Below, one piece after another: positions 3,958 through 44,022 of a DNA stretch of 64,000 bases. A program made the translations under genes and the position numbers. The first letter of the stretch is position 1, and the number at the start of each line of letters is the position of its first letter. Under the pieces are notes generated by a model. The model was not told the DNA's origin and did no database searches. It saw only the letters and a list, made by a program, of their open reading frames with translations. The DNA comes from Coffea arabica. Its lineage: Eukaryota > Streptophyta > Magnoliopsida > Gentianales > Rubiaceae. The DNA lies in assembly GCF_036785885.1 (NCBI RefSeq), contig NC_092323.1:10176501-10240500 (forward strand), in the 5' to 3' direction.

Positions 3958-4639
3958 TTCTGGATCGAGGGAGGACACCGAGCATTTTGATGTTTATCAG
4001 TGAATTTACAGCATAAGATCTTCTTCATATGTATGCTCAGACTAATTCTTTGCATTTATATGGTTTCGCACATCGCGTTTTTGGTTACACGAGTCTTTCT
4101 GTTGCGCAAACTGACGCACCATTGGCGCCTTCAACTGCCAAAATTCATTTGCTCAGAGCCATTTTTGGTTAGACAAATTGCTCTGTAAATCGAGTACTTT
4201 TTGTCCAGTTATATCAATTGGGTAAACTAAATCAAATTTTCAATTTGTTGAATCTTTGAAAGGATGGCATCCTCTCAAGTCACAGGTGCCGCTAAGGTCC
4301 TCCTACTTCTTCAGGTGGATTCCGAGAAAGATGAGCTGACAATTTTTACTTTTTTTTTTCTTTTAAATACCAAGATGCGACCGTCGAGAAAGACAAGAAA
4401 AAGAAATCTCAGAAAGAAGGATGCAACCTTCAACTACCAACCCTGCAGTTTTGAGGGATTAGGTTGTAGTAGTCATTCGTTATTATTGCTGCAAGTATCT
4501 GGGGTGGATAATTGAAATGACAAGAATCAATAATTTCCAGATCGAATTCGGAGTAGCATTCTTGTCCCATCATTACCTGTGAATTTGTATGAACTCCGGA
4601 CGAAAAGCAGAAGATGCAGCTTAGGTTGCTTGAAGCTTT
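3958..4639. other. Convergent 3' regions between SAC and cis-prenyltransferase genes
   Basis: The stretch between two stop codons of convergent genes should hold both 3' UTRs and polyadenylation regions. Short open frames here have no recognisable protein content. Confidence 0.6.
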
Positions 4640-6010
4640 TCAAAATTGCTTCTTTCTCTTCTCAAAAAGTGGATGAGCTCTCTGGAAATTCAGTATAGCC
4701 CAGACAAGGTGCTCCAAACCAACCTCGGGCCAAAGAGCCTTTGGTGAATACAACAGGCCATTCCATGTCTGCCAGAGAAGGAAATTGCTAAGCCGAGTTT
4801 CCCCTGAAGATCTTACCAGAATATCCACATCAGGTGCCACTCCCATGTACATGTTCCTCTCAATATCTGATAGCTTTATATTTGGTTGAACCTCCTTCAT
4901 TTCTTTGACAAAACCCTTCTGCTCTTCTTCACTCTTCTCCTCCAGCTTTCCATTGCTCAACTCCTGTTTTTCTTCACTTGCATTCTCCAGCTTTTCCCCG
5001 TTGGGGAAATCCCCCTGCTTTTCTTTGCCCAATTCCTCGTGCTTTTCTTCTTCGCTCGGTTCCTTGCTCTTTTCTACACTTTTATCCTCCTGCATTTCGC
5101 CATTTGCCTCCCCTTGCTCCTTTTCTTCAGGTTTCTCCTCCTCCTTTCCATTCATTATCTCGCTTATCTTCCCAAATGGAGCTCCACTTAGCTTTTTTTT
5201 CGCTATCTCGTTTACCTTCCCAAATGGAGTTCCACTTAGCTTTTCTTTTGCTATCTCGTTTATCTTCCCAAATGGAGCTCCACTTGGTTTCAGTGCTTGC
5301 AATTCATTGCCCAGCTGTTCAGAAGATTCTTGAGCAGCATGCACCATCTCATGCAATTCCTCGCTTATCTTACCAAATGGAGCTCCACTTGGTTTTAGTG
5401 CTTGCAATTCATCGCTTATCTTCCCAAATGGAGCCTCACTTGGTTTTAGTGCTTGCAATTCATCGCACAGCTGTTCACAAGATTCTTGAGCAGCATGCAC
5501 TATCTCATCAGTCGAAGTATAAGCAACGCAGATGAGGAGAATGCTCCTGCTGTTCTTCGCTGTGGCTTTCATTGCCTGTTCAGCTGCATGCCTGACATTA
5601 TCATCCAGAAGTTTCAAGTCCCCTATAAAGTACACCCTCACCCCATATTCTTCCACTATAGTCCTTTCCTTGAGCATCCCTTCAATCTTCTCCAGCATCA
5701 AATCCATCAAACACTTGACCTCATGAGGCTTTCTTTTGAAATTATCAATGCTGAATGCATAAATGGAGATGTACTTGATCTGCAACTCATAGCAATACTT
5801 GATCAAGGACATGAGGGAGAGAAATCCAGCTCTATGTCCCATTCCTTCTCCCAACTTCCATTTCCTAGCATACCTTCTGTTTCCATCCAAAATGAAGGCA
5901 ACATGGTTGGGGATTGGACCAGCAGACAGAACATCAAACAGAAATCTTCTCATGTGGCTAATTGAGCTGCCACATAACCTCCCAACAAGGCTGTGCTTTT
6001 GAGGCTCCAT
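4640..6010 (-). CDS. cis-Prenyltransferase (dehydrodolichyl diphosphate synthase type) with repeat-rich insertion
   Basis: Single-exon frame of 456 residues from ATG at 6010; the frame stays open further upstream but without ATG. It is a UPP/DHDD synthase-fold enzyme that adds isopentenyl units in cis configuration to make dolichol or polyprenol precursors at the ER. Visible motifs are HVAFILDGNRRYARK (36-50, catalytic Asp about 42), GHRAGF (58-63), YAFSIDNFKR (84-93), ICVAYTSTDEI (160-170), and the region-V motif DILVRSSGETRLSNFLLWQ (396-414) followed by LWPE. Between the third and last conserved blocks sits an extra segment of about 200 residues (178-378). It has five copies of an SGAPFGKI-like unit, a second copy of the VHAAQES segment, then a Glu/Lys-rich tract. 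Typical plant enzymes are about 270-310 residues and have only a short variable loop here. All catalytic blocks are intact, so activity is plausible. An AG just before the ATG (GGCAG/GAAATG) could be a 5' UTR intron acceptor. Confidence 0.92.
   Translation of the reverse strand: MEPQKHSLVGRLCGSSISHMRRFLFDVLSAGPIPNHVAFILDGNRRYARKWKLGEGMGHRAGFLSLMSLIKYCYELQIKYISIYAFSIDNFKRKPHEVKCLMDLMLEKIEGMLKERTIVEEYGVRVYFIGDLKLLDDNVRHAAEQAMKATAKNSRSILLICVAYTSTDEIVHAAQESCEQLCDELQALKPSEAPFGKISDELQALKPSGAPFGKISEELHEMVHAAQESSEQLGNELQALKPSGAPFGKINEIAKEKLSGTPFGKVNEIAKKKLSGAPFGKISEIMNGKEEEKPEEKEQGEANGEMQEDKSVEKSKEPSEEEKHEELGKEKQGDFPNGEKLENASEEKQELSNGKLEEKSEEEQKGFVKEMKEVQPNIKLSDIERNMYMGVAPDVDILVRSSGETRLSNFLLWQTWNGLLYSPKALWPEVGLEHLVWAILNFQRAHPLFEKRKKQF
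4877..5479 (-). repeat. In-frame tandem-repeat and Glu/Lys-rich insertion in the cis-prenyltransferase
   Basis: About 600 bp, read in frame, with no stop. At 5155-5460 a 48-60 bp unit recurs whose core encodes (K)xSGAPFGKI(S/N)E; five copies are seen with single substitutions (SEAPF, SGTPF, GKVNE). A larger unit, VHAAQES(C/S)EQL..ELQALKPS, is present twice. The first copy belongs to the conserved enzyme core, so the expansion began by duplicating enzyme exon sequence. The rest (4877-5150) encodes EEKPEEKEQ-like low-complexity sequence. Confidence 0.9.
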
Positions 6011-33106: not shown

Positions 33107-36100
33107 CTAGGAGTCTAATTGCTCAAACGCGCCATCTTCTGCAACCTCAATGGATGAGGTCGCCTCTGGAAAAAATTCTTCGTTGGGATACATCTTGTGA
33201 AAAAGCTGCCATTAACAACACAAGTGTCCTACTTCAGTAAACATGTTAATGAGCAAAAGAAAGAATTCATCTTTAAGTGTCAAGATAGAAATATTAAAAT
33301 GGCAGTTTTTCTAAATCTAAATAGAGCATCTTATACCTTAGTCGTAGCATCTAGAAGGTTGTTGTATTGTAGATTCCCATCAGGCATAAAGGTTGAACTC
33401 ACACAACCAAATGCACCCTACAAATTACAAACAAATAAGGGCCATTTGCTCAAGAACTTAATGCACATTCTCAATCAAAATAATATAGGGATATGGAAAC
33501 CAACAGAGAAGAACTGGAAAAACAAATGACAAATACTTCCAAGCATAACCATTAACACAATGAGAATCTCAACGAGTAGCATAGGAACAAAATACCAACC
33601 ATTGTGAGCTCCTGTATATAAACTGTACTCCACAGTAAACTGGGTTTCAATCCTAACACTGTATTTTCACCATGAGAATCAGTAGAGTTTTCCTCGGGTT
33701 TCCCAGAAATAGGAATTGAAAACAAAGCATTCATTGCTTCATTTACTATCTTCTTCCCTTGTCCAACATCTTCGCATAGAGTCGATAGGTAAACAACAAA
33801 CCTGAACCAGGGAAGGAAGAGCATCAATCAGTGCATTGCACTCAAAATCTCTGAAAGACTCATTAGAGGGCAAGGTAACCATGCAAGGGCTAAGTGAGAC
33901 AAATTTATTCGGTAACTTACATGCCAGAGGGACAAGCAGCAACATTGCTACTCAATTGGAAAACTCGGACGGATGTCATCTGCTCTGCAAACAAAGCTGG
34001 AGACAGAAAGTTAAATGTAAGCTAGTTAACTAAAATCAAAAACAAGAAATGACAAGATAAATGCAGAACTCACATCGAGGGGGAAAGAACACCAGACAAT
34101 TTGCAACATCCAGTTTTAGGGAACTTTTTGTGATGCATATTCCCCTAACCACCTTTACTTTTTCATCTAGCAGGCCAAAATCATGGCCACCATCTGGCTC
34201 AGGATACAAGTAAGAAGGAGCGAAACCTGATGGAAGAATGAATGAGGGATCAAGGATCAGCTTATGGCTGAATAATTCTTGACCAGAAAGCAACTTAACA
34301 CCCTTATAATTCCCAACTTCCTGCAAAATGATGAATACAAATTCATACCTTTCTCATCATTTTTTAGACAACTATATATTCCAACAGGGGAAAAATATCA
34401 ATTACCCAAAAATAACATAAAATTCAATTAGACCTTATCTGCTAGTAGACCAACCACAGGCATTCGCAGGACCTGCATGAAAATTTTGAAACTTGAGGTG
34501 AGCGTGGGATTTCAACAAAATAATAAGAACTCTATAAAACTCACAGCAATTAAGCCCTGAAACAGAATAGATTTAAATAAAAATAAAAAGTACAGAATGA
34601 AGTAGGATAAGAATAGTAGATACACTTTGGGAAATCTTTCTCCTGTCATTACGTTTTCTCTTCCTAAACTGATCTATTCTTTTCCCTTCCACTTTTGGTG
34701 ACGAAAACCAAATAAAAAGAAATCTAGCACAAAATAAGCAAACCAGAGTTGCTCAAAAAATATGTTTAATCTATCAGGCAGTACTTACATGGATAGAACC
34801 TTTAACGGCAGCACGACGGCAAAATGCTTGTAGAAGTTCTCCTTGCCCGTAGAGTGGATATATCATGGCACCAGGTGCATTAGGAAACCTAAAAGCATAA
34901 TACGAGCACAAAGCACCCATTAATGTGAACCTTAAGGAGCGCACAGAATCAGCACATAATATCTCTATTCTTGGTTGACAAGAAAAGAAAACTAGTTGCA
35001 ATAAAAAGTTGAGACAACTTTGCTTCAAGACAGAAGCCAATCATTGCACCTAGCATTGTGGTAAATTCATACGATTAATCTTGATAAAGTAGAGGATGCT
35101 TATTGAAGTCAATGTCCTGTAAGCTCTCCACCTCCAATATTTCAACATGAAAGAATCTGTTCCTATCACCATATATAAGAAATGTCAAGCAAACAGGGTA
35201 CACGAAATAACCTGCCTCCAGATTTATGATAGAGTATTAAAAGATCGATTCCGTCTTTCGTCTCGAGGACGTCCTTGCAGACTTCCAAGTTGTCTTGTTC
35301 ATAATGTGCCATCGAAATTGCATACAAAATAATCCTAGACAAGCAGAAAGGTTGTGTAAAACATATGCTAGAAATGCAACTCAACTTTAAGTGAAGTGGG
35401 AAAATAAAAAGGGGAAGGAAAAGGCCTGGCAGAAAAAAAGAACAAAGATATAATTTAAGAACTTTTGAGCATTACAAAATGCAAAAAGGCATCAATAGTT
35501 ACCACAGGAGGATCAAGCATAATCAGATCACGTAATAACAGCTTTTTAACAAATGGATCCAAGCATATGTCCAATCATTTCCAAATGAAGCTTATGAAAA
35601 ACCAATATAACACACTCAAAGTTAAATCCTTTCCGGATCACAATTAGAACCAAAACAGCAACAAAAAGAAAAGGACAAAATTCCAGGATATAAGAAATGC
35701 AAATTAAAATTCAAGTTGGATTCGTAACTAGCCTAATATTTCGTAAGCATATGAAAGCATAATGAAAGTGTAAATAAACAAAGCGCTCTCACTAACAGAG
35801 AGAAAGAGCAAGTGCAAGAGCAAAAGGCGAATCGGATCAGTACGATTTTAGCTTCTGCGACAACCCAATCTTCCGGCTCAAAAACTCCACAAATGGACTC
35901 TTTAAATCTTCCTCAGAAATTTTCTTGCTTTCCTCGTCACTCCCATCACCAAAATGATCCTGAACAAGCTTGAAGAACCTCATCAACTGATTCTTCTCTG
36001 TAAAGCTCAAGCTCTTATCCTTGAATATGGCACTTCGCGAATCTGGTACATTCCGCAAATTCCCCTCCTCACCCTCACAAATAAAGCTAGCATCTACACT

Positions 36101-36538
36101 CTTGAACTCCATGCAGTGATTAATCTCCGTTTTCAAAATCAAGTCGATCATCTTATCGGCACAGAACAAGACCCTAGGCCCTGCTAAATCGAGGTTGAAT
36201 TGGTTTGACTGCTGGAGAATTTCGGGGGAAAACACGCTAGTTTCGATGGAGGAGTAGACAGGGCTAGTGGTGAGGGGAAGAACGTTGAATTCGCCGGAGG
36301 AGCTGGGTTGGGTTTCGGGAGCGGAGGGTAGGGAGTGGGTCTGGAGGAATTCGGTGAAGTCGTGGAGATGTAGAGAGGCGAAGTGGCTGCCGTAGTAAGG
36401 GTTGGGGTCGAGGTGGAGGACGGTTTTGCCGGAGCTGGACGCAGCGGCGGCAAGGATGGATTCCGGGAGGCCTGTGCCGATGACGATTAGATCGAAGTTG
36501 GCGGGTTCTATAGGAGGATACGACATCGCTTCGTCCAT
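33107..36538 (-). CDS. REP: Rab escort protein (Rab geranylgeranyl transferase component A)
   Basis: Nine exons, all GT-AG and in phase: 36538-35844, 35334-35212, 34888-34789, 34472-34434, 34320-34074, 33996-33921, 33801-33600, 33417-33337, 33205-33107; 553 residues, close to the Arabidopsis REP length as I recall it. REP binds newly made Rab GTPases in the cytosol and presents them to the geranylgeranyl transferase, a step needed for membrane trafficking. The N-terminal GDI/REP signature is FDLIVIGTGLPESILAAAAS (about 17-36), followed by LDPNPYYGSHFASL. Later blocks are SIILYAISMAHYEQD, RFPNAPGAMIYPLYGQGEL, VLRMPVVGLLADK and LLWSTVYIQE. The acidic C-terminus ends EDGAFEQLDS. The start ATG at 36538 gives MDEAMSYPP; a second ATG four codons later is the alternative. 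No damage is seen. A damaged tandem copy lies 0.8 kb upstream on the same strand. Confidence 0.95.
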
Positions 36539-37332
36539 GACAAAGGAGGGAAAAAATTTTATCACCAAACTAGCGAAGCGCCAGACTTTATGACTTTATT
36601 CCCTGGCATTTCTTTTTCTCTTTTTTTTTTTTTACTTGTGAATCAATTTTTCTTTTCCGCATATCATATATTTCTTTTATCCATCCTTCCATAAAAACAT
36701 AAATCTGGATACTATTTTGTTTTGTTCCTTCTCCAATATAATTCTATCATTTAGTTTCTTTTTATTTTTTTTGTTCACACAAAATTATCTTCTTTGCTTT
36801 TATCTTCTTTTTGCTCCTAATCATTTCATCCGAAAATATACTTCATTCTTTTACATCTAAGAAAATTTTCCGAGGAGAATAGTGTATCCACAATTCGGGT
36901 ACAGAATATTTTACTCTCATACCATCGGCAATCTTGCATCTAGTGACTAGTTTCCTTTTAGTGGAGATTTTTCTATGGCGATTCTTAAGACGGAAGCATT
37001 CCAGTTAGGAGTAAGGGCCGTAAACTTGCTTTATAGACCCTGTGAAATACTTCTCAAAAGTGAATAACTGGAAGTTGATTCAATTTGAGCTTTGTTGCTG
37101 CTTTCATTTGTTGTGAAGCAGTTATGTTGTACTTGTTGGAAGCACACGCTGTTCAGAGAAATGTAGATAGTAGTGTGTACTAATGTTAGTTCAACCGCGC
37201 TGCAGCAAAAGCGAAAAAATTCAACTGAACTTACACAACATTTAGCTTTTGATGTATTATAGAATTGGTTAGATCCCCAGTGTTTTATATTTGTTGTTTC
37301 CTCTGAATCCTCACTCGAGCAAAAATCCCAAC
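36539..37332. other. Spacer between tandem REP copies
   Basis: AT/T-rich DNA (for example a T run at 36621-36632) that serves as the upstream region of the intact REP gene and the downstream region of the decayed copy. No other feature is seen. Confidence 0.6.
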
Positions 37333-40300
37333 ACTTTCGCTCGGATGCACCATCTTCTATGACCTCATTCGATGAGGTTTCCTTTGAACGAATTCTTCAT
37401 CACGATACATGCTCTGAAATAGCTGCCATGAAAAGTACAAAAGTCCCCATCGCAGTGAGAGTCTTAACATGCAACAGAAAAGGTGTCGAGATTGGCGAAT
37501 AATACCAAGACAATTTTCGTTAAACTAACTAAAATATCATCTACCTTTTCTGATGCATCTACAAGATTGTTGTGTTGAAAATTTCCGTCAGGCGTAGAGG
37601 CTGAAATAACACCATCAAATACACCCTAAAAACCAAACAGAAATAAGGGCGATCAGCTGGAGAAGTCAGTGCATATATCAGACCAGGAAAAAAAAGACAT
37701 GGAAACAAAGGGGAAAAATGTGAGAAACAAATGAATAGAGTAATTAGTTGCCAAAGTAAAGATGCGATGATTCAAAAAGTAAAAGAAGGAAAGCAGTAAG
37801 ACACAAACCACAGTTTGCTCTTGTATATACACAGTACTCCAAAGCAAAGTGGGTTTTACTTTCACTACTGTATTGCACTCTGATGATCCTCAGAATCTTC
37901 CTCAGAGTTTCCAGAAACAGGAACAGAAAACAAATCATTTATGGCTGTAGTTAGTAATTCTTTCCCTTGAGCTGCATCTTCACAAATTGTTGATACATAA
38001 ACGACAAACCTGTAGCATGGGAGCAACAAAACGAGATCAAATTTGACTCCACAGAGCAGAAACCTAGTTAAACCAACTTTCAAGATTCAAAAGGCTGAAG
38101 ACTGATGAGACAAAATTTGTCATTAGGAATCTTTGCCCGACAGCCTAAACCATATTTTGGCACCTATTCAATGTGTCTTAGAAGATGAGTTGTAGAAAAT
38201 CTTAATTGCATGTCATTTCTCTCTTTCTTTCCTTTCTTAATGGACACTGTGATTGGGCTTTTCATTTTCCCCCTTCATAAAATCAACAAACTAATGCACG
38301 AGTAGCTTACATGCCAGAAGGACAAACATTCATATCACTGCTCAAATGGAGGACTCGGATTGATGTCAGCCGCTCCGGGAACAAAGCTAGACACAGAAAG
38401 TTTGGTCATAACTACCATACAAAACCAAAGACACGTTAAAGGAAAAAAAAAAGAAAAAGATTGAATGCAGGGCAGACCTTGAGGGGGATATAGCAGCAGA
38501 CAATTTGCTATATCTGGTTTTAAGGAACTTGCTGTGATGCATACTCCCCTAAGTACCTTGTCTTTGGCATCCTGCGGCCTAGAATCATGATTATAGGAGC
38601 TAATCCTGAGGGAAGATTAAACGAAGGAGCAAGGATGAGCTGGTGGCTGAATAATTCTTGACCACAAACCAACTTAACACCCTTATAATCCCCAACAACC
38701 TAAAATATAGGCAAAATGACAGATATAAGCACCTGTAGTTCTTATAACCAGATATGTTTACTGCAAAATCCAGAAGAGAAAAATAAAATACAACAAAAAC
38801 AAGAAACTTGGTCAAACCTTGTCTGTAAGTAGACCAACCACAGACATCCCTTGACCCTGTTTGAACAATTGCAAACATAAGATAAGCATAAGGGTTCAAC
38901 AAAATAACAAGCAATCCTCTAGATGACTCATAGAAATTCTGCCCATCAGCAAATTGGATTAAGAAAACAGAACAAACAAGAAATAATGGGAGTAGATGAT
39001 ATTTCTTCTCCGACAGTGATGTTTGTCTTTGCCTAGTTATCTTCCCTTTTCCCTTGTACATGGGGTAGACCATAGCCCAAACCAAAAAACTTAAGCTAAC
39101 TGGTAACCGAAAAAATCCACCACAAATAAAAATGTAGCACAAGTCATCAACTAGAGTTGTCTAGATGAAATACTTAGCGTAAGTTTTAGCACTTACATCA
39201 AGACAATCCTTGTCAGCAGCATGAGCACGACAGAAAAATGCTAGAAGTGGAATTATGCCTTGCCGGCAAGGTGGATATATCATGCCACCAGGTGCATTAG
39301 GAAACCTTTACAAACGTTGATAGTACTATGACATGCCTTAAGTATCAACTTTCAAAATTGGAAAAGGAAAATATAAAATAAAAGTACTAAAACATAGGGC
39401 TTTCGTATCTATTGACAAGACAAGAACAATAAATGACAATTTTGCTTCAAGACAGAAGCTAATTACCAACAGATAACAGTGCCAAATTGATAGACAAATT
39501 AATCTCAAACAAATTCTGCTTGCGTGTAGATTAATTGGATATGAAAAGAACTGCATTTTACTGAGGAATCAATATATCAAATGTATATTAAACAGGGGAA
39601 TGGATCTGTTCTAATATGGACATGCATCATGTATGTACAACAGTAAAAACATGCAAGAAACGAGGTAAAAAATATCCTGGCAACTGATGAATGACAAAGC
39701 ATTAAGCGATCTATTCCATCTTTTGTTTTAAGAATGTATTTACAGTCTTCCACATTGTCTTGGTCATAATCTGCCATGGCAATTGCATACAGAATAATCC
39801 TAAACAGGTGAAAGAAACTGAAGTAAAAAATGCTGAATGCAGGTAAAATCAAAAGTTAAATAACTCAACAACAGTAGTGATTATAAAGATATGAAATTCT
39901 GAACTAACTGAGCAAAACATGAGCTACAGAGTATAAGTTTTAGCTTTGAGAAACCTAATTATTTTGTTATTCTTGAACATAATCTATAAAGAAAAGAGCA
40001 AGGGCTAAATGGGTATCAGTTTGTACGATTTTAGCTCCGAAAACGGACTCTCTAAGTCCTCCTCTGGAATTTTCCTATCTTCTTCGTCATTCCCATGTCC
40101 AAAATGCCCCTGAACCAGCTTGTAGAACCTCATCAGCTGATTCTTCTCTGCAAAAGTCAAGCTATTATCTATAAATATGGCGCTCCGCGAATAAGGCACA
40201 ACATTCCACAAATTTTTACCGCCATCTTCATCAGTCCTACATATGAAGCTCGCATCCATTCCAGGCAATTGAACCTAATGAACTCGTCTATATCCACATT

Positions 40301-40690
40301 TAAAATCCTATCAGTTTTCAAAATCAATTCCATCATAGGATCAGCACAGAATAAAACCCTAGGCCCCGCTAAATCAACGCTGAATAGTCCATAATTGTCA
40401 ATAATTTCTGGGGAATATACGCTAATTTCGACAGAGGAGTACATGGGGCGAGTGGTCAGAGGAAGGACGTTGAATTCGCCGGAGGAGGATCCGGGTTTGA
40501 GTTCGGGCTGCGGGCATGATTTTGAGTGGGTGTGGAGAAAATCAGTGAAGTCTTGCAGAGGGAGAGAGGCGAAGTGGCCACCGAAGAAAGGGTAATGGTC
40601 GACGATGAGGACGGTTTTGCCGGCGAGGGATGCCACGCAGGCGAGTATGGATTCTTCGAGGCCGGAACCGATCACAATTAAGTCGAAATT
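37333..40690 (-). pseudogene. Decayed tandem copy of the Rab escort protein gene
   Basis: All nine REP exons can be matched in the same order, with comparable intron positions. The first is 40690-40030 (FDLIVIGSGLEESILACVAS); the second is 39799-39677 (IILYAIAMADYDQDN); exon 7 begins near 38009 and the last ends near 37333. Damage is extensive. No in-frame ATG precedes FDLIVIG. The frame changes in exon 1 between the RILNVDIDEF and MDASFICRTDE segments. About 11 residues are missing at the exon 1 end (SPFSELKS against SPFVEFLSRKIGLSQKLKS). The exon 2 donor reads CCAG/GATATT instead of GT. Exon 5 has lost a block and its frame after LPSGLAP, exon 7 stops early (EDHQSAIQ), and exon 9 ends early. 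It is most likely a non-coding relic of a tandem duplication; transcription is not excluded. Confidence 0.88.
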
Positions 40691-41296
40691 GGTAGGTTGG
40701 ATGGAGGAAGGAAATTTTTGGGAAATCTGTTGAAAATTGCCGGGAAGGGGGAGGAGACCGTTAACTTGGGACGTTAAGGAAGATGTTGGATTTTGGAGGG
40801 AAAGTGTATATAAGTTAGGACTGGTTCTACACGACTACATGTGATATTATTGGATTACGAATCTCAGGGCATGTTTTGTTTGGTTAGGATTTTACAAAAA
40901 CTAATTAGAATTAGTCAAAACCTATTTACAAAAAAAACTTTTTAGTAAATTATGAATTTTAGATTTTTTGACTTTTAAAAAATCTAAAATCTATCTACAA
41001 AAAAATCTAAATAAAAAAGAACATCAAGGGAAAAAAACTAATTATCCAATATCAAAATATATAGTTTGGTGAAATAATTGATTAAGAACAAGCGTTCCAA
41101 TATCAAAATCAAGTAAAATAATCAACGGAAAACAAGCACTCTAATAGAGAAATTGGAAAAAGTATGCTCTATCTCATGAATTCTGATTTTTACCACCAAG
41201 GGAAAAAATATTCATGCAACCTTTCACTTTAACCTTATTTTATCTAAGGAGATAGCACAACTTTCATTCTATTTGCAATTATGCTAATTTAATTAC

Positions 41297-41493
41297 TTTG
41301 TGCATATCATCTTTTTTTTTTTTTTTTTGGTCAATTGTCATCCCTACTCCTACTCCTACTCTATCTACGGGGAAGGCTCAACTGAGTCTATGGGGATCGA
41401 TGGGACAAAACCACCACCGGACCAGACAGGTGTGTAGTGCACCCGTCTGGATTTGAAGCAGAGCCACAGGAGTGGCATTTTGTGCATATCATC
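41297..41493 (-). mobile_element. SINE (copy in duplication unit A) with 15-bp target site duplication
   Basis: The body is 41312-41478, minus strand, with its A tail appearing as T run 41312-41328. TTTGTGCATATCATC flanks both sides (41297-41311, 41479-41493). The 5' part reads TGGCTCTGCTTCAAATCC, where GCTTCAAATCC resembles a pol III B box; a TACTCC/GGAGTA repeat precedes the tail. Confidence 0.85.
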
Positions 41494-41661
41494 ATACTAG
41501 ATACTACTAGAAAAGCCGTTCTTGACGAGAATATTAACTTTTTTTATATATATAAAATTCAAGATCTCTTAATTATTCATGCAACCTTTCACTTTAACCT
41601 TATTTTATCTAAGGAGATAGCACAACTTTCATTCTATTTGCAATTATGCTAATTTAATTAC

Positions 41662-41855
41662 TTTGTGCATATCATCTTCTTTTTTTTTTTGTCAATTGTC
41701 ATTCCTACTCCTACTCCTACTCTATCTACGGGGGAGGCTCAACTGAGTCTATGGGGATCGATGGGGACAAAACCACCACCGGACCAGACAGGTGTGTAGT
41801 GCACCCGTCTGGATTTGAAGCAGAGCCACAGGAGTGGCATTTTGTGCATATCATC
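41662..41855 (-). mobile_element. SINE (copy in duplication unit B)
   Basis: Same element as at 41297-41493, copied by the tandem duplication rather than by a second insertion. The same 15-bp flanks are at 41662-41676 and 41841-41855. Confidence 0.88.
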
Positions 41856-43201
41856 ATACTAGATACTACCAGAAAAGCCGTTCTTGACGAGAATATTAAC
41901 TTTTTTTATATATATAAAATTCAAGATCTCTTAATTACAATTTTCCCCACTTCACCGCTTCGCGCATAACGTTTAGATTGTTTTCTTTTAAGCCAACGTC
42001 TACACTGCCTATGCGACGAATTGAGTGGAGGAAGCCATTTGCGTTAAGTTGATTGTGCTTCTCGCATAGACTTTTAGGCATCGGATATAGACTTGAGGAA
42101 GCAAAAGGACCTTTGGGAAATCTAGTGAACTTGGACTTGTTCTGTTTAAAATTTAAGTACTGGCAAACCCGTCTTAAAGGACCTCGTGGACTGCCTGAAC
42201 CTTTGCAAACTCTTTGGTAGAAAGATTGCGATGAGGAAGACTTCCCAGTTCCGTCCTCCCATCCCAATCAATAATATATTTCCATTGGACGACAAACGAC
42301 GACGTCTCTTTCGCTGAACTGACCCAAAAGCTTACGCTTTCACATCTTCTATTCGCTCCTGACGGATAAAGCTACCATTTAATTCTGATTCTATACTTAC
42401 GATATCAATTTTGAAAAACAAATAAGTTTTTTTTTTACTACACGTCGACAGAAGAAACCTCATATTCTTTCTGTCATTGCTAAACCTAAACTCATCAACT
42501 TTTAAGTACGCTTTATAGATAAAATTGTGGTTCTTTCACAATTCCAAGGAAGATTATGGGAAATTCCTGAAATCGACGCTAGGTACGCTATTATATTCTC
42601 TTCCTAATTTTTCCTCATGCACACATCGCGCTACTGATCAGGTGTAAGCCTATGTTATTTTTTCACTGTCAGGGGTTTAGCATTCAAATCCTATAACCAG
42701 GAAATTGGATGTGAGAAAGGTGCGAGGAGGAGGGATGGAAAAGTATATAATAATAATAATAAAGTATGAGCCCATCCAAGGCCTCTACCAGCTCACAATA
42801 AATTGACACGTCTGTATCATAAGCTCACCGGGTGGGTGGAATTCCGGAAGATTTGACCGAAAAGAATGAATACAGAATCTCTTTATTATTAACAGTACAA
42901 TGTGGCCAAAGTCAAGCAAGTAAAACAACCGAAGTTATATCTTTTGCTCCTCGCAGGAAAGAACACAACAAAGTCGCTGGACTGCCATCTATGAAAATTC
43001 AAATGTCGATGCTTACACTCAGGTGCGTGCCAACGAGAAAAGGGCCAAAGGGATCTTCTGACCAAAGGAGGCGGTAAGCTGCGGCTACTCGAATGATTTC
43101 ACAAACTCTCTGATTACACCGCATCAGGTCAGGTCACATAGTTTAAACAGTTCAACGATGAAAAATTGAAACCAGGTTTAATGTGTTGTGTGACATACGC
43201 G

Positions 43202-43293: not shown

Positions 43294-43431
43294 TCCAGCA
43301 TCAGCATTCACAGACGGTGCTAAACTAGGTGCCATTCTCTTTCTTTTCTTTTGCCTTCCGTTTGCAAGATTGCTCTGTCTTTTGATCAAATTCTTTCAAT
43401 GGGTTCGTTTTTTTGAAGTCTTCGTAACCCA

Positions 43432-44022
43432 ATGGCCGATCAAAACACCGGAACTTACTACCGGCAACTGTTCACAAGCTTCTCAGAAAACTTTATGGCT
43501 GCCTGGCGCAACATTTCCGACTTTCTCTCTGAATTTGAGCTCCCCGCAGCCATTTTCCCTAATGACATCTTCGTATCCACTATGACGGCTATCCTTGCAC
43601 TTCTGCAGCTGAAATATCACCAGGACGGCTCAATAAATCCGTTTGAATCGCACCCCATAATTTCCGCGCTTGCCATTACTAGTTTGCTGCTATATGGCTT
43701 AGCATACAGCGCTGAAGTCAGGTTTTCATCCGATCATTCCGGGCGTTTCAGAAATGTAGTTCGCTTCAGCATGTGGCTCACTGGTTGCTTTTGTTTAGCT
43801 TCCATGGCATCGTTCCTGTTCCCTCAATCGGTCAGGCCTCTAGTATTTGCATTTTTCTTCATAATGCTGTCAGCTGAAATGCTGTATTGGTTTTATCAAA
43901 GATTTCATCAGGAACTTGGAACATTTCACGGAGGATGGAGGCGCATCCGACAGAGCTTCATGGGCATCTGGAGGCGCATCACTCAATGCTTTACTAATCG
44001 GGGCCCAATTCTTCCACTTTGA
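43432..44022 (+). CDS. Unknown four-helix membrane protein, plant-type, single exon
   Basis: Intron-free frame of 196 residues starting MADQNTGTYYRQLF. I do not recognise the family. Hydrophobic stretches near residues 45-60 (VSTMTAILALLQL), 75-93 (IISALAITSLLLYGLAYSA), 112-128 (MWLTGCFCLASMASFLF) and 133-152 (PLVFAFFFIMLSAEMLYWF) fit four membrane helices. Between helices 1 and 2 is QDGSINPFESHPI. The C-terminus is basic and aromatic, with a repeated GGWRRIRQSFMGIWRRITQ pattern (two copies of G-x-WRRI). A TATA-like box, a 5' leader and a clean ATG context support a real gene. The next gene is on the opposite strand and converges on it. Function is unknown; a role in a membrane compartment is the most that can be inferred. 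Confidence 0.75.
   Translation: MADQNTGTYYRQLFTSFSENFMAAWRNISDFLSEFELPAAIFPNDIFVSTMTAILALLQLKYHQDGSINPFESHPIISALAITSLLLYGLAYSAEVRFSSDHSGRFRNVVRFSMWLTGCFCLASMASFLFPQSVRPLVFAFFFIMLSAEMLYWFYQRFHQELGTFHGGWRRIRQSFMGIWRRITQCFTNRGPILPL

Follow-up and report, generated by a model that had tools for sequence, protein, structure and literature searches.

A cis-prenyltransferase gene of Coffea arabica carries, inside one reading frame, a loop expanded by tandem repeats, and we consider it probable that this loop is a tolerated coding-minisatellite expansion of a DHDDS-type enzyme's own loop, probably with little effect on catalysis. The gene lies in the window (the whole stretch of 64,000 nucleotides analysed) and its frame runs uninterrupted through the repeats to the stop codon, which is included in the coordinates given here. 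Its parts are as follows.

4640..6010, minus strand: cis-prenyltransferase frame, putatively DHDDS-type, 456 residues (open reading frame, PF01255, human DHDDS match)
5477..6010, minus strand: N-terminal core, residues 1-178, with the conserved blocks up to the helix containing VHAAQES (profile, alignment, pLDDT mostly above 90)
4880..5476, minus strand: expanded loop, residues 179-377 (199 residues), before region V (residue counts from A173 to D396 against relatives)
5162..5476, minus strand: putatively younger repeat block, residues 179-283, with five SGAPFGKI-type units (tandem repeat and unit analysis)
5417-5443, 5366-5392, 5261-5287, 5213-5239 and 5165-5191, minus strand: 9-residue cores of the five units
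5414..5500, minus strand: first 29-residue copy, VHAAQESCEQLCDELQALKPSEAPFGKIS, residues 171-199
5258..5344, minus strand: second 29-residue copy, VHAAQESSEQLGNELQALKPSGAPFGKIN, residues 223-251
4880..5161, minus strand: Glu/Lys-rich tract, residues 284-377, a degenerate array periodic at 24 and 51 nt (autocorrelation; pLDDT below 50)
4643..4879, minus strand: C-terminal core, residues 378-456, with region V (DILVRSSGETRLSNFLLWQ) and lacking the G of the C-terminal RxG (profile, alignments)

The protein is a member of the cis-prenyltransferase / UPP synthase family by its profile, its conserved residues and its fold. According to a Pfam profile scan of the whole protein, the match to PF01255 (E = 7.9e-62, 209.1 bits against a curated cut-off of 27) is split into two stretches that flank the tract, profile positions 1-141 before it and 137-215 after it. 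Human DHDDS (6w2l, 6z1n), named in the entry titles as the catalytic subunit of a complex with NgBR, is the solved structure that matches best in both sequence and fold; the alignment with 6w2l (E = 2.7e-51) spans residues 17-178 and 378-454, and only 12 DHDDS residues lie between the aligned halves, where the window protein has 199. In an alignment of 53 rows, 49 of them prokaryotic and picked by hand from 80 loci mainly for coverage, 20 columns are invariant throughout, including H36, D42, G43, N44, R46, G58, H59, S87, N90, R93, R400, R406 and S408. All 20 are kept both by the window protein and by a second copy on contig C13, in line with the earlier note's statement that the catalytic motifs are present. 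The window protein deviates at six of another 16 columns that are nearly invariant (Y47, D89, N417, L419, P447, E450), and the deviations at Y47, D89, N417 and L419 are common to two paralogues.

The RxG motif marks one-subunit cis-prenyltransferases. All 49 prokaryotic rows keep its columns, R447 and G450, where the window protein and the C13 allele have P and E and the paralogues R and S. The absence of the motif from the C-terminus of the catalytic subunit suggests the DHDDS-type (heteromeric) subclass, and because the G is missing, an NgBR/Lew1-type partner subunit is likely to be needed. A critical RxG is placed in NgBR by the title of a reference in PMC6695881, an excerpt of which also gives AtCPT1 as a reported plant exception to the complex with an NgBR/Lew1-type subunit. 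The gene is presumably translated, and from its sequence the product is probably competent, and may be active, as an enzyme.

The tract had been located and described correctly in the earlier note, down to the single uninterrupted frame. Its five SGAPFGKI-type units read SEAPFGKI, SGAPFGKI (three times) and SGTPFGKV, and the reported second copy of VHAAQES belongs to a 29-residue segment, VHAAQES...PFGKI, which starts within the core helix and is present twice, beginning at residues 171 and 223. The estimate of about 200 residues holds for the whole loop, but not as a gain, which is 166 residues net over the two paralogues of the same genome. Tandem Repeats Finder scored two arrays, at 225 and 202, and the autocorrelation of the repeat block peaks at 48, 51 and 105 nt. 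The Glu/Lys-rich tract, also correctly reported, contains 30 Glu and 16 Lys among 94 residues (51% charged, net charge -16, GRAVY -1.99) and itself looks repeat-derived, an apparently older part of the same expansion process. It holds a 34-nt repeat at spacings of 45, 51, 51 and 51 nt, and its autocorrelation peaks at lags of 24 (z = 5.05), 51 (z = 3.56) and 72 (z = 2.99), the best lag being equalled in 0 of 1000 codon shuffles, although the lag-24 signal could in part reflect charge patterning rather than duplication.

A collinear copy of the region was found on C13 in a search of the genome (1.198 Gb in 131 contigs), aligned in blocks of more than 400 nt across the 64-kb window at 87-98% identity. 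Near the gene, 98.7% of the aligned sites are identical in the 3' flank and 94.5% in the 5' flank. From this collinearity we infer that the C13 copy is the other haplotype. It encodes a protein of 415 residues with the same tract without 17, 16 and 8 residues, all in frame, and has three SGAPFGKI-type units against five in the window. The lost lengths match the repeat periods, and they correspond in the window to the following stretches.

5414..5464, minus strand: 51-nt unit absent from the C13 allele
5162..5209, minus strand: 48-nt unit absent from the C13 allele
5030..5053, minus strand: 24-nt stretch of the Glu/Lys-rich tract absent from the C13 allele

With tandem units and a length difference between the collinear copies on C13 and C14 (the window's contig), whose status as haplotypes is inferred, the tract is a coding minisatellite.

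Other features of the window also stood out. Two neighbouring frames at 35837-36595 and 40169-40834 (minus strand) match the GDI/Rab escort family PF00996; in the latter the haplotypes differ by one gap of 18 nt and four of 1 nt, and it may be a decaying duplicate. A tandem duplication of a 362-nt unit (97% match) occupies 41209-41937. A frame of 201 residues at 43417-44019 (plus strand) has no Pfam match, and its haplotypes differ by 21 replacement and 9 silent changes and one 9-nt gap.

Could the tract be an artefact of assembly, or an intron removed by splicing, two of the outcomes that the earlier note had named as refuting it? Introns do occur in some plant CPT genes, as an excerpt of PMC6695881 describes for AtCPT1, but nothing in this sequence supports either reading, and we regard both as extremely improbable. 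An assembly error is strongly disfavoured because two collinear copies of different length both carry the tract, at the same place. In a scan for splice signals, no in-frame GT-AG pair of modest strength that would remove the tract passed the thresholds: the best donor in the scanned region scored 7/9 and the best acceptor context had 6 T in 15, while at least 7 T in 15 were required, so that the count of zero follows from the acceptor threshold alone. The scan used the known splice consensus, and the T content of the coding strand, 20% and 11% in the two parts of the tract, is unlike the composition of plant introns. The paralogues, moreover, read through the same loop without an intron. On the gene's strand there is an A-rich run at about 4340-4365, some 280 nt beyond the end of the frame, which together with the intronless gene might point to a retrocopy, though introns are missing from the paralogues as well.

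Where does the repeated element come from? Insert-free paralogues of 290 residues are encoded on C3 (39.26 Mb) and on C21/C22 (29.57/44.11 Mb), and shorter or broken family copies also occur in the genome. Unlike the open C3 frame, its C4 copy (40.27 Mb) is interrupted by a premature TAG and is altered in conserved blocks. These paralogues share with the window protein the family, the motifs, the place of the loop and an intronless open frame, at 56-59% identity, but each of the two has 56 residues between A173 and D396, against 222 in the window protein and 181 in the C13 allele, and the repeats are absent. In the 49 prokaryotic relatives the same interval holds 24-38 residues (median 35).

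The loop of the C3 paralogue starts CEEKWDEGSALESKGAGNGLV. Of 21 aligned positions, the first repeat copy of the window agrees with it at 8 (a score reached by 7 of 100,000 shuffles), the copy of the C13 allele at 9 (0 and 2 of 100,000 in two runs) and the second window copy at 7 (98 of 100,000), in a test that was devised after the likeness had been seen and in which the register of the first copies is fixed by the adjoining conserved helix. Against the C21 loop the first window copy, the C13 copy and the second window copy match at 7, 8 and 6 of 21 positions, respectively (41, 6 and 690 of 100,000 shuffles). Because the unit resembles the paralogue loops at the same place, the repeated element is most likely the enzyme's own loop; the poorer match of the second copy (6-7 of 21) speaks against this reading. 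The earlier note was right in placing the tract at the naturally variable loop, but its term "insertion" misleads, as the repeats resemble native loop.

A foreign domain was considered and rejected. Within the tract no Pfam family scored above its cut-off, the best others being DUF1833 (E = 0.064) and SnoaL_5 (E = 0.091), and the tract alone returned three matches from the PDB, all Cas12k (E = 0.84 to 0.95). A protein search of the genome with the tract gave, beyond C13/C14, four weak matches on C3, C1, C5 and C20 (E = 0.010-0.040) that we take as chance. A transposon origin was likewise set aside: the unit resembles native loop, and the genomic DNA search, which skips simple repeats and very common words, gave no match beyond C13 and C14.

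Among the genome-wide matches listed, only C13 and C14 carry the tract. The four full-length paralogue copies that were translated (C3, C4, C21, C22), the 49 prokaryotic relatives and the five solved relatives among the alignments listed all lack a comparable insert, and a literature search brought up no CPT with such a repeat loop in titles or abstract openings. In the portion of PMC11820359 at hand, Taraxacum kok-saghyz has eight CPTs and two CPTLs of 244-307 residues; these are likewise plant CPTs, with five conserved regions, but the window protein and its allele, at 456 and 415 residues, lie well outside that range. Among the relatives compared here, a loop about four times as long as that of the paralogues is unusual.

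The structural model that the earlier note had proposed, an AlphaFold2 prediction on 53 aligned sequences, has a mean pLDDT of 74.4 and a pTM of 0.62. Both core halves are predicted confidently (pLDDT mostly above 90). Over residues 191-270 the block-mean pLDDT is 46-75, with helices at 196-204, 213-243, 247-259 and 262-274, and over residues 273-357 the pLDDT is below 50. The tract is thus predicted to be disordered or weakly helical, with the repeats as weak helices and the Glu/Lys-rich part as disorder. The first Foldseek match is human DHDDS (E = 4.1e-20, r.m.s.d. 5.6, TM by target length 0.71, with DHDDS matches spanning 0.68-0.71), and for bacterial UppS the TM by target length reaches 0.90, a match to be read with the UppS relatives included in the model's own alignment.

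Does the kept frame argue for selection, as the earlier note had it? We find this argument weak, because the units of 24, 48 and 51 nt are multiples of three, so that slippage would preserve the frame unaided, and because multiples of three also make up 19 of the 42 length differences on the two sides of the gene (6 of 13 and 13 of 29), against 3 of 3 in the coding sequence (about P = 0.09). Dinucleotide shuffles of the 199 loop codons were stop-free in 0 of 2000 cases (mean 9.9 stops), and those of the Glu/Lys part alone in 3%, but such tests are inflated by the copying of a stop-free unit. Over the whole gene the alleles differ by 16 replacement and 4 silent changes, the ratio that the numbers of sites predict under neutrality, which further weakens the argument. 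They divide into 10:2 in the core and 6:2 in the tract, and the latter give no sign of constraint on the tract.

For the core, the comparison with the paralogues yields dN of 0.36-0.37 with saturated silent sites, which, judged from the sequence, marks a long-constrained protein. Between the alleles, the core dN/dS is about 1.3, whereas in seven neighbouring control exons (silent:replacement 4:2, 3:0, 2.5:7.5, 2:6, 9:21, 1:0 and 2:6) it ranges from 0 to about 0.9. The paralogue pairs gave silent:replacement counts of 3:13 (C3/C4, with C4 broken) and 1:0 (C21/C22). Because the core value tops all seven control exons, the gene as a whole may recently have been under slack constraint, although the numbers are small. 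All 10 core replacements lie at positions that the window allele does not share with the C3 paralogue (P = 1.8e-4), as do 8 of 10 when the other allele is compared instead (P = 0.017); 111 of 257 core positions differ from that paralogue. Because the replacements fall where the protein differs from its paralogue, the core is probably still constrained at family-conserved sites.

The expanded loop might instead be functional and selected, binding an NgBR/Lew1-type partner or a membrane or altering product length, with repeat number as a means of tuning. Neither copy has an interrupted frame; the duplication takes in the end of the core helix, with helix predicted again at 213-243; and the missing G of RxG makes a partner subunit likely. 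The allelic changes nevertheless fit neutrality, within the tract as in the whole gene; the repeat copies within the protein differ at similar rates at replacement and silent sites (pN 0.089, pS 0.119, from non-independent pairs); the pLDDT of the repeats is low, and lower still in most of the Glu/Lys-rich tract; and units that are multiples of three keep the frame by default. We therefore think this reading unlikely. That the gene is a weakly constrained duplicate heading to decay, its growing loop a symptom while the C3/C4 and C21/C22 copies do the cell's work, we judge likewise unlikely. Insert-free paralogues do exist, one of them with a C4 copy already broken by a stop, and the core dN/dS, highest among the exons compared nearby, favours decay and speaks against a tolerated loop with some core constraint. 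But both alleles are open and keep the 20 invariant columns of the 53-row alignment, the core has diverged little from the paralogues relative to its saturated silent sites, and the allelic replacements avoid positions common with the C3 paralogue.

We therefore favour an account in which the enzyme's own loop has expanded and is tolerated. Slippage or unequal exchange would have duplicated this loop, which lies between the VHAAQES helix and region V, step by step in tandem, in units of 24, 48 and 51 nt that keep the frame. Older units would have decayed into the disordered, acidic Glu/Lys-rich tract, while younger ones would be near-identical and still changing in number, leaving the plant heterozygous for forms of 456 and 415 residues. 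The loop would exit the folded core as a flexible excursion; it may be tolerated, and nearly neutral, because the core can close around it, with probably little effect on catalysis.

Could the loop act as a heritable length dial, its repeat number altering partner binding, membrane docking or chain length? This seems to us quite doubtful. A loop about four times that of the paralogues (222 against 56 residues) that differs between chromosome copies is nonetheless a natural insertion experiment, showing where the cis-prenyltransferase fold may tolerate growth. The paired natural alleles of 456 and 415 residues suit a test of the loop's effect on chain length or partner binding, and if the loop is neutral, it would be an example of coding-repeat growth from an enzyme's own loop.
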